NCBI GenBank assembly: GCA_001898725.1
Contig: MKUV01000060.1
Span: 1-41,301 of the forward strand
Origin: Caedibacter sp. 37-49
GTDB lineage: Bacteria > Pseudomonadota > Alphaproteobacteria > Caedimonadales > Caedimonadaceae
DNA length: 41,301 nt
Reading direction: 5' to 3'
Part shown: positions 38,212-41,137 of the stretch, in pieces
Position numbering within the stretch: the first letter of the stretch is position 1
How the letters are laid out: every line of letters starts with the position of its first letter
Translations under genes and position numbers: made by a program
The notes under the pieces: generated by a model
The model's input: the letters and a program-made list of their open reading frames with translations, nothing else
Databases searched by the model: none
Told to the model about the DNA's origin: nothing

Positions 38212-39471
38212 ATGAAAGCAAAAGTCCTCCCCCTTATTACAAGTTCTTTTCTTGTGTTATCAATATACTCAGCTCAAGCATTTAATACCCTTGATAATGA
38301 ATCACCTCGATATAAGATGCCAAAAAGATATCATCATCTTAAGGAACTTAAGAATGAAGCTCTTAGAGAGGCTAGAAAAGAAGCGCAAGAGTCGCGTGGC
38401 GTAAAATATGTTGGTTTTCGTAATACAATTGAAATTCATGCCATTGATTTTGAAAAAGAATGGAACGAAGATTCTAAAGAAAATATCCAAGTTTCAAAAT
38501 CTACAGTTAATCCTTCAACGAAACCAAAACTCGAAAAAAGGCTAGCAGTACCTAAGTTAAAGCTTACCGAAGAGAGAGTCATATCAAGTGATGTTGAGGA
38601 AAATAAGGTAATAAAGCCTGAAAATTCAACCCAGCACAAACGCGGGGCAGGAAATATTGTAAACCTAGAACAGCTTTTTGCAAAACCCTTAAGTCCAAGA
38701 GCTCAAGAACAATTAAATACTATGGTGGGAAGAGTATCTATTGAAAAAGCATCAATAGAAGGCCTGACAACCTGGGCAAAGCTTGGTAATATTTCAGCTC
38801 AACATGAATTAGGTGGCCGCTTAATGAATCGAAAGCCATTAACTGCTTTAAAATGGATTGGTAAAGCTGTTGAACAAGGCGATGAACAAAGTGTCGCTTT
38901 ACAAGCAAAAATATTGGATAGACTTGAAAAGCGTCATGCGAGAATCATAGCACTTCATGATCACCATTTTAGGAAGAAAATAAGGTCAGAAATTGAAAAT
39001 CCTTGTCTTCCTGCACAAGTGCCTCTTTTCCCTTTTTCTGGCGAAAAAATCGGAGATAATCAAGTCTGGAAGAAATGGTACATGCAAGCAAGTCTTATAT
39101 TAACGGACGATCCTTTTAATCCTGAAGCTAAAAATTTGCTAGATGCTGTAAGTCAACTTAAGCCAAGTTTTAAAGACGCTTATTTTCGTCTCTATTTAGT
39201 AGAGCTTGCTAAAGGAAATAAAGAGGAGGCGATGATTTACCTTAAAAAAGCAGCGTTAGGACCTAAAGGATTGGATGTTGCGCAATATCAAATGGGATTG
39301 CACTTATTAAAGCAAGGCCGACAAATAGCCGCTGAAAGGTGGCTAAAAAAGGCTTCTGATCAAAAATATTGGTTGGCAGACGAGGAACTTAAGAAACTGT
39401 ATTCTGAAAAGAAGGAAATGTTAGAGAAAATCTTAAATGAACACAATCGTTCTATAAAGATTAATCCCTAA
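38212..39471 (+). CDS. Secreted Sel1-like repeat protein
   Basis: 419 residues. Signal peptide MKAKVLPLITSSFLVLSIYS with cleavage after SAQA. A basic, probably disordered segment (about 30-150) is followed by Sel1-like helical repeats: GLTTWAKLGNISAQHELGGR near 185-204, ALKWIGKAVEQGDEQSVAL near 213-231, AYFRLYLVELAKGNKEEAMI near 325-344, and VAQYQMGLHLLKQGRQIAAE near 360-379. It shares the type of architecture, but not close sequence, with the 770-residue protein at 33067, and the motif SPRAQ with the Ser-rich protein at 28022. ATG 38212 follows AAGGAG. Closed by a strong terminator. Function unknown; host interaction is inference. Confidence 0.78.
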   Translation: MKAKVLPLITSSFLVLSIYSAQAFNTLDNESPRYKMPKRYHHLKELKNEALREARKEAQESRGVKYVGFRNTIEIHAIDFEKEWNEDSKENIQVSKSTVNPSTKPKLEKRLAVPKLKLTEERVISSDVEENKVIKPENSTQHKRGAGNIVNLEQLFAKPLSPRAQEQLNTMVGRVSIEKASIEGLTTWAKLGNISAQHELGGRLMNRKPLTALKWIGKAVEQGDEQSVALQAKILDRLEKRHARIIALHDHHFRKKIRSEIENPCLPAQVPLFPFSGEKIGDNQVWKKWYMQASLILTDDPFNPEAKNLLDAVSQLKPSFKDAYFRLYLVELAKGNKEEAMIYLKKAALGPKGLDVAQYQMGLHLLKQGRQIAAERWLKKASDQKYWLADEELKKLYSEKKEMLEKILNEHNRSIKINP

Positions 39472-39487: not shown

Positions 39488-39522
39488 AAAAGCCGAGAAG
39501 CGAGAGTTTCTCGGCTTTTTTA
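39488..39522 (+). terminator. Rho-independent terminator after the Sel1-like gene
   Basis: AAAAGCCGAGAA and TTCTCGGCTTTT form a 12-bp stem with an 8-base loop and a T-run at 39516-39521, 17 bases after the stop codon. Confidence 0.92.
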
Positions 39523-39559: not shown

Positions 39560-39587
39560 TTGACGCATTCATCCTTTTTGCTATCTT
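39560..39587 (+). promoter_or_regulatory. Predicted promoter of the riboswitch-MFS transcript
   Basis: TTGACG (39560-39565), 16 bases, TATCTT (39582-39587). Transcription would begin near 39594, just at the start of the riboswitch P1 stem. Confidence 0.55.
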
Positions 39588-39593
39588 CATAAA

Positions 39594-39773
39594 AATTAAT
39601 TTTAAGGTCCAGAGGTACTTTTCTCTGTTTAAAAGGGAATCTAGTAAGCTAACTTTAGAGCTTTCCTTGCAACTGTGCTTGGTGCGCGTTCTTTTTGATA
39701 TATTATGGGGAAATTTCCCTGAGAAGACAGAAAAGAGCATCGGAATCCAAAAGTCAGGAGACCTGCCTAATAA
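39594..39773 (+). ncRNA. Cobalamin (B12) riboswitch
   Basis: About 180 bases with the landmark elements of the class in the right order: TTAAAAGGGAATCTAG (about 39629-39644, cf. the conserved GGGAA block), TTGCAACTGTG (39667-39677, cf. the CGCAACTGT core), a variable peripheral helix with GGGGAAATTTCCC (39707-39719), and the B12 box AGTCAGGAGACCTGCC (39752-39767). AT-rich ends can pair as P1. It lies in the leader of the MFS gene at 39911 with no other gene between except a 36-codon frame. Ligand-bound aptamers of this class normally turn expression off; here no terminator follows the box, so control may be at translation. Confidence 0.9.
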
Positions 39774-39775
39774 TT

Positions 39776-39886
39776 ATGAATGAAGACATAAGTTGGTTTG
39801 CAGTGGTGAAAGCGTGTGGAATATATTTAATGCTTTTATTAGGCTCTCTCAGTTTTAAGATCATTTGTTCATGTGTGTTAATGTAA
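39776..39886 (+). CDS. Possible 36-residue membrane microprotein or leader ORF
   Basis: Begins with ATG nine bases after the B12 box and reads MNEDISWFAVVKACGIYLML, then LLGSLSFKIICSCVLM; largely hydrophobic with one likely membrane helix. It ends 24 bases before the MFS start. No ribosome site except the GGAG inside the B12 box 15 bases upstream, which is too distant to be convincing. It could couple riboswitch state to transporter translation, be a small subunit, or be a chance frame. Confidence 0.3.
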   Translation: MNEDISWFAVVKACGIYLMLLLGSLSFKIICSCVLM

Positions 39887-39910
39887 AAAAAGATTAGGAG
39901 CCCTCAATAA

Positions 39911-41137
39911 ATGGTCAAGCTTTTAAAAAACAAATTTGCACATCTTCCTTTTGAAATTTGGGCATTAACTTTTGCGAACTTATTGGTGGCTGTTGCAACA
40001 ACAATGGCTTTTAGCATCTCGCCATTCTTTATTACTACTGTTCTTGGGCTTAGCATGTTTTCGATGGGGGCGATGGAAGGTTTTACAGAAGCGCTCTCTC
40101 AAGTTTGTAAATTGTCATCTGGAATAAGCAGCGACTATTTTCGTAAAAAAAAGCCAACCCTTTTATTTGGTGTTTTTTTAGCTGCCCTTTCTAAACCTTT
40201 TTTTATCTTAGCCAATGGTTCAATGGCAGTCATGATTTCAAAAATACTAGAACGTATTAGCAATGGCGTTATCGCAACGCCGCGAGATGCTTACGTTGCA
40301 GATATATGTAGCTCATCTAAAAGAGGAGCAGCTTATGGTGTGATGATGACAGGAAAAACAATCGGATGTGTTATTGGACCATTGCTTGTTTCAGGACTGA
40401 TATTTTTTACAGAAGATTATCGCCTTATCTTATGGATTGGATTCCTTCCTGTTATTGCGGCTTTGTTCATTATTTGGAAGTATATGCACGAGGCAAATTC
40501 TCAAGAAGATAAGGTGGGAACAGAAAAAAAGAAAGGAAGTTCAATATCTTTTGAGGACATGAAGCATTTGCCTTCTAAGTACTGGATGACAATTGGAATT
40601 GCTGCTGTTTTTATGCTTGCTCGTTTTAGCGATGGATTTTTAGCTTTACGTTTAAAAGAATTAGGGGCTCCATTGCCTGTTTGTACAGCAACAATTGGGA
40701 TTTTTAATTTTATTTCAGTATTATGTAGTTATCCCATAGGCCGCCTTTCAGATAAACTAGGACGAGAGAGGCTTCTTTATTTTTCTTACATTTCTTTAAT
40801 TCTTTGTAACGTCTGCTTTATTTTTGCAGGCGATATGTGGCTTGGTTTGGTCGGTGTTTTATTATGGGGTGCTCAACGTAGTACTTCACAAATTCTTTTT
40901 ACAGCTTTAATAGCGGATGTAGCGCCTAAAAAAATCATAGGGACAGCAATAGGTCTTTTTTATATTGTTTTAGGGATTTCTTCTTTGCTTGCAGGAAGTA
41001 TCTCAGGATGGATAGCCAATACTCATCTTTCAAACGTGTTTATCTTTGGATTCTTTGTCTCAATTCTGGCATTAATTATCCATGCTTTAACTCTCGGAAG
41101 ATTTAGTTCTTATAAAGAATCTTTAAGGACTACCTAG
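39911..41137 (+). CDS. MFS transporter under B12 riboswitch control
   Basis: 408 residues, about 12 membrane helices in two halves joined by a charged loop (about 195-215: MHEANSQEDKVGTEKKKGSS). MFS signature motifs: after TM2 SSGISSDYFRKKKP near 73-86, LERISNGVIATPRDAYVAD near 116-134, and in the second half YPIGRLSDKLGRERLL near 276-291. The carrier is controlled by the cobalamin riboswitch upstream, so the likely substrate is cobalamin, cobinamide or a related compound; this is inference from regulation, as MFS sequence alone does not show the substrate. No BtuB/BtuFCD genes are in the window. ATG 39911 follows AGGAG by ten bases. No strong terminator is seen; a short stem AACCTT/AAGGTT lies at 41197-41212. 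Confidence 0.88.
   Translation: MVKLLKNKFAHLPFEIWALTFANLLVAVATTMAFSISPFFITTVLGLSMFSMGAMEGFTEALSQVCKLSSGISSDYFRKKKPTLLFGVFLAALSKPFFILANGSMAVMISKILERISNGVIATPRDAYVADICSSSKRGAAYGVMMTGKTIGCVIGPLLVSGLIFFTEDYRLILWIGFLPVIAALFIIWKYMHEANSQEDKVGTEKKKGSSISFEDMKHLPSKYWMTIGIAAVFMLARFSDGFLALRLKELGAPLPVCTATIGIFNFISVLCSYPIGRLSDKLGRERLLYFSYISLILCNVCFIFAGDMWLGLVGVLLWGAQRSTSQILFTALIADVAPKKIIGTAIGLFYIVLGISSLLAGSISGWIANTHLSNVFIFGFFVSILALIIHALTLGRFSSYKESLRTT

Follow-up and report, generated by a model that had tools for sequence, protein, structure and literature searches.

Organisation of the leader and the MFS gene

The window, the whole stretch of 41,301 nucleotides that we analysed, belongs to a genome of 1.83 Mb in 78 contigs (G000). 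At 39911–41137 (+) it carries an open reading frame for an MFS permease of 408 amino acids that matched MFS_1 (PF07690; E 2.8e-49) and has a likely ribosome-binding site, AGGAG, at 39896–39900 (+). RF00174 matched the leader at 39588–39784 (+) over the full length of the model (positions 1–189; 67.2 bits; E 1.3e-14), exceeding the gathering cut-off of 31.5 bits by 35 bits. The scan bore out the initial annotation, which had described a B12 riboswitch here with the right coordinates and B12 box. The box (AGTCAGGAGACCTGCC; 39752–39767, +) is intact by sequence and by the RF00174 match, and the aptamer also retains P1, P3 and the AAAAGGGAA core. The leader is, as judged from its sequence, a true descendant of a class I cobalamin riboswitch. 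Ten genomes of the order yielded 13 cobalamin riboswitches, the window copy having the lowest score. The Rfam match together with the relative-rate excess described below identifies it as an eroding aptamer homologue.

A promoter of the form TTGACG-16-TATCTT, with TG before the −10 element, lies at 39560–39587 (+); such matches were no more frequent in the region than expected by chance, but the sister species G003 and G002 both retain this one. The proposed arrangement of a dedicated promoter followed by an MFS gene thus held. Upstream, a consensus scan and inspection of the sequence located a terminator-like stem with a T-run at 39501–39521 (+; stem 39501–39513). Since this stem closes the preceding TPR-like gene (38212–39471), the riboswitch leader appears to be its own transcription unit.

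Erosion of the leader among three congeners

To characterise the state of the leader, we compared it with its counterparts in the two sister species. The same leader in G003 (the MAG "Caedibacter sp. 38-128", which NCBI places under Gammaproteobacteria) scored 121.8 bits and has a perfect L5–L13 kissing loop (6/6 pairs), with a pairing energy of −18.2 kcal/mol compared to −7.7 kcal/mol in the window. Within the L5 segment of the window (GCTTTCCTTGCAAC; 39660–39673, +), CCTTGC replaces the CCCCGC of the intact copy, which makes full pairing with L13 impossible. The P13/L13 expression platform (39787–39808, +) has lost two of its six stem pairs and three of its six kissing pairs; the other three kissing pairs are G–U only, leaving 0/6 Watson–Crick pairs in the homologous register. 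The pairing at −7.7 kcal/mol lies outside that register and was equalled by 120 of 500 shuffles, so no good alternative pairing was present. Intact copies ranged from −11 to −18 kcal/mol, except for the leaders of a gene of no known family at −8.8 kcal/mol. Compensatory change in the window kissing loop was also tested and was ruled out by the L5–L13 pairing analysis.

The substitution pattern was then assessed. Nine of 52 conserved columns are changed in the window aptamer. Departures are also numerous in the nrdA leader of G007 (10), which keeps its kissing loop, and in the btuB leader of G001 (6), which means that changed columns are not by themselves proof of decay. A Fisher test of conserved against other columns was marginal (p 0.03); for this reason we base the case for decay on the broken loop and on a relative-rate test. 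In that test, which used the G002 nrdA leader as outgroup, 33 private changes fell on the window lineage and 11 on G003 (p 0.0013), and four other outgroups agreed (p 2e-5 to 0.003). No such excess on the window lineage, relative to G003, was detected in a second B12 leader of the genome (3 vs 8), in NrdJ (52 vs 53) or in the MFS protein (9 vs 17). Folding of the complete leader RNAs added no information (z −0.24 and −0.53).

The leader is more severely altered in G002, where deletions have removed P13, the GGGAAG strand and the J6/3 region, and where RF00174 gave no match at E 0.5; the promoter and fragments of the aptamer remain before the MFS gene. Shared ancestry of the decay in the window genome and G002 was considered and ruled out, because 25 NrdJ sites join G002 and G003 as sisters, compared to 8 and 3 for the alternatives; the two losses are thus independent. 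Across the three congeners, one and the same riboswitch can be followed from an intact through an eroding to a destroyed state, as a natural series upstream of a gene that stays intact.

These data allow a still-working riboswitch to be weighed against a decaying one. A switch that represses the MFS gene when B12 is plentiful, perhaps with altered kinetics or ligand preference, would agree with the wide margin over the RF00174 cut-off, with the retained B12 box, P1, P3 and AAAAGGGAA core, and with an aptamer that is 74% identical to that of G003 where fourfold sites of the MFS gene reach 52%; the G007 nrdA leader likewise departs at many conserved columns yet keeps its kissing loop. We consider this improbable for the window, given a homologous register devoid of Watson–Crick kissing pairs, a broken P13 stem and the nine changed conserved columns. 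Descent and score place the RNA in RF00174, but the L5–L13 kissing loop is lost, and we suggest that the RNA be annotated as a degraded cobalamin riboswitch. The description "clear" is too strong for this copy, in which the kissing loop and P13 are broken and change is accelerated. Regulation of the MFS gene by the leader appears to be decaying in the window genome; some ligand binding by the aptamer may remain, since the B12 box and P1 are kept.

The second riboswitch of the genome (L001, 1501–1696, −) is intact, with 0/52 conserved columns changed, and also occurs in G003. It precedes a membrane-anchored protein of 327 amino acids of no known family (gene L020, 8593–9576, −; further locus L022, 7903–9168, +), with 60% identity and a dN/dS of about 0.33 between the two genomes; its predicted structure was uninformative (pLDDT 36). 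With none of the conserved leader columns changed, this protein could prove more informative than the MFS permease about how the genus handles B12.

Origin of the leader and B12 requirement in the order

To trace the origin of the leader, we assigned targets to the 13 riboswitches from the positions of riboswitches and genes and from neighbouring open reading frames. The targets were nrdA in five genomes (G002, G004, G005, G006 and G007), btuB in four (G001, G004, G005 and G006), and, in both G000 and G003, the gene of the 327-residue protein and the MFS gene. That B12 controls nrdAB and btuB is an established pattern, and B12 riboswitches regulate isozymes of B12-dependent enzymes (PMC3766115). 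The L13 found downstream of the G003 MFS aptamer, GGCGGGGTGCAC, is the same in the nrdA leaders of G005 and G006. Other nrdA leaders vary L13 along with L5 (G004, ACCCCCGT with ACGGGGT; G007, CCCTCGC with GCGAGG), and the L13 of btuB leaders differs from the nrdA/MFS type. Leader trees placed the two MFS leaders with that of G002 nrdA (FastTree support 0.93; the trio had an ultrafast bootstrap of 100), and the leaders of the 327-residue protein fell nearer the btuB leaders with weak support. The MFS riboswitch was thus most likely copied from an nrdAB leader, as far as leader sequences and trees indicate. The copying is dated before the genus diversified because G002 also retains the promoter and aptamer fragments before its MFS gene. 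A search for synteny linking the MFS locus to nrdAB loci, as expected if nrdAB had been deleted in place, found none. Whatever the MFS protein carries, this appears to be a leader that was transferred from the operon of an enzyme to the gene of a transporter.

The demand for B12 was assessed across the same ten genomes. NrdJ is encoded in all ten, and that of the window organism scored 2125 bits against the model of the vitamin B12-dependent reductase (cut-off 1737). No other large-subunit ribonucleotide reductase was found in G000, G003 or G001; nrdAB is kept in G002 and was not found in G000 or G003. A PduO-type cobalamin adenosyltransferase is present in 8/10 genomes, G000 included; the family's four genomes yielded no B12-binding domain of the MetH/mutase type. 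The window also encodes an ATP/ADP translocase (22753–24273, −; PF03219, 665 bits), which is characteristic of energy-parasitic intracellular bacteria and fits the intracellular life previously proposed.

No TonB-receptor Plug domain, as in BtuB, was found in the genus, and the sister genus retains one BtuB-like receptor. E. coli BtuC, BtuR and QueG had no match in the ten genomes, the absence of BtuC resting on a single E. coli sequence; the same query recovered BtuB relatives at 25–29% identity. The genome check thus returned NrdJ and an adenosyltransferase, but neither BtuB nor BtuC. From its gene content, the window organism appears to need external adenosylcobalamin or a precursor. Given its dependence on NrdJ, and with neither BtuB nor BtuC detected in an importer search that covered these two, a non-Btu route for B12 would be required. 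The initial annotation had proposed such a route; that part is favoured by NrdJ as the sole reductase detected and by the undetected BtuB and BtuC, but its suggestion of the MFS protein as the cobalamin carrier was not supported, for reasons given below.

Across the order as a whole, NrdJ is accompanied mostly by the adenosyltransferase and often by BtuB, with a BtuC-like permease in 0/10 genomes. At L091, 5434–7895 (−), L092, 7018–9536 (+), and L093, 4732–7244 (−), in G004, G005 and G006, a small gene resembling a dedicated TonB comes after btuB. In G001, a different MFS gene (437 amino acids; L023, 9668–10981, +) lies divergently beside the riboswitch-controlled btuB, where it could be an inner-membrane partner or stand by chance.

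The MFS permease and its possible role

The MFS gene is intact in G000, G002 and G003, with dN of about 0.08–0.12 and dS above 1. The protein of G003, the nearest named relative found, is 87% identical to that of the window (dN about 0.09, dS about 1.0, dN/dS about 0.09). In all three species, strong purifying selection maintains the MFS protein. Foldseek matched the predicted model, of modest quality (pLDDT 69), to MFS structures with probability 1.00, and a PDB sequence search gave no match at E 1e-5. By profile and fold the protein is an ordinary MFS permease, which does not sustain the suggestion of an undescribed transporter class. A relative at 72% identity lies beside a mitochondrial-type-carrier-like gene on a Chlamydiales-labelled MAG contig (L007, 1–4450), the binning of which may be wrong.

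Orthologues at 52–66% identity were detected in G004, G007, G008 and G009 and, class-wide, in G022. No riboswitch was found before those of G004, G008, G009 and G022; the G007 gene is cut by a contig end. Among the orthologues checked, a riboswitch precedes the MFS gene only in G000 and G003, and it is dead in G002. G001, G005 and G006, all with NrdJ, have no orthologue. The earlier reading of the MFS protein as a cobalamin carrier is weakened by this absence of the riboswitch at orthologues elsewhere, by the three B12-dependent genomes that lack the gene and by a leader that looks copied from nrdAB.

The leader could have arrived by accident. An nrdAB riboswitch copy landed before an MFS gene unrelated to B12 by rearrangement, with no benefit and now being lost, would account for the nrdAB-type leader, its loss or erosion in two of three species, the bare orthologues and the generic protein. 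We regard this as rather unlikely: the G003 aptamer and kissing loop are almost unchanged despite a fourfold-site identity of 0.52 in the MFS gene, which requires selection, and the other identifiable targets in the order, btuB and nrdA, are all B12-related. The permease might instead by-pass NrdJ, for example by taking up deoxynucleosides or similar compounds under B12 shortage, in replacement of a lost, B12-repressed nrdAB. The nrdAB-type leader agrees with this, as do the control of isozymes by B12 riboswitches (PMC3766115) and the retention of nrdAB in G002, where the MFS riboswitch is dead, against G000 and G003, where nrdAB was not found. A pattern over three genomes is weak, however, the sequence bears no sign of a nucleoside transporter and the closest folds are mixed MFS porters, so that we hold this reading to be very improbable.

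The explanation that we prefer overall, at slightly less than an even chance, is an nrdAB-derived riboswitch before an MFS gene for a corrinoid carrier, with control decaying in the window. The sequences show that the riboswitch was already in place upstream of the MFS gene when the genus arose; G003 has preserved it, the window copy is partly eroded and that of G002 is destroyed. In G003, binding of adenosylcobalamin would close the L5–L13 kissing loop and lower MFS expression, so that the carrier would be produced under B12 limitation; the window loop would no longer close normally, and the MFS gene is probably expressed without B12 control. More tentatively, the MFS protein would be an inner-membrane carrier of cobalamin or another corrinoid supplying NrdJ, BtuB and BtuC being undetected in the genus. 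The link to B12 is drawn from the riboswitch in one genus, chiefly the well-kept G003 copy, and from the absence of known importers, and by this genomic context the permease is a candidate corrinoid carrier for which B12 uptake is plausible, if somewhat doubtful. Loss of the switch in two of three congeners speaks against this role and fits a weak benefit. The fuller scenario, in which the MFS protein took over corrinoid import for the essential NrdJ in a genus that lost BtuB and in which BtuCDF was not detected, under B12 control through the copied nrdAB riboswitch, and would be the first MFS-type B12 carrier, is doubtful. Were the MFS protein a B12 carrier, it would explain the vitamin supply of B12-dependent endosymbionts that lack BtuB and BtuCDF. 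Many bacterial B12 carriers are still unidentified (PMC8123684). Among open-licence papers, we found no MFS B12 carrier, no B12 riboswitch before an MFS gene and no account of the B12 riboswitches of this order; the novelty of a B12 riboswitch before an MFS gene is provisional.

Compared with class I riboswitches of RF00174, the window leader is alike in its full-length match, B12 box, core and a P13/L13 homologous to that of the order's nrdA leaders, but differs in a mutated L5, J6/3 region and L13 and in the lost kissing loop. Its nearest relatives are the leaders of B12-riboswitch-controlled nrdAB, the isozyme of NrdJ, whereas the gene behind it is an MFS permease and nrdAB was not detected in the window genome. 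The permease shares the twelve-helix MFS fold of the drug and metabolite porters OxlT, NorA, LmrP and YajR, but only 13–18% sequence identity, and the records of these porters do not mention B12 carriage or control. To BtuB/BtuCDF, with btuB under a riboswitch in G001, G004, G005 and G006, it is alike in possible role only: MFS proteins are unrelated to ABC importers, and neither a Plug domain in the genus nor a BtuC-like match in the ten genomes was found. BtuM and CbrT (ECF) belong to different protein families, the window MFS matching MFS_1 only, but both are inner-membrane B12 routes other than BtuCDF (PMC8123684), as is proposed for the window MFS.
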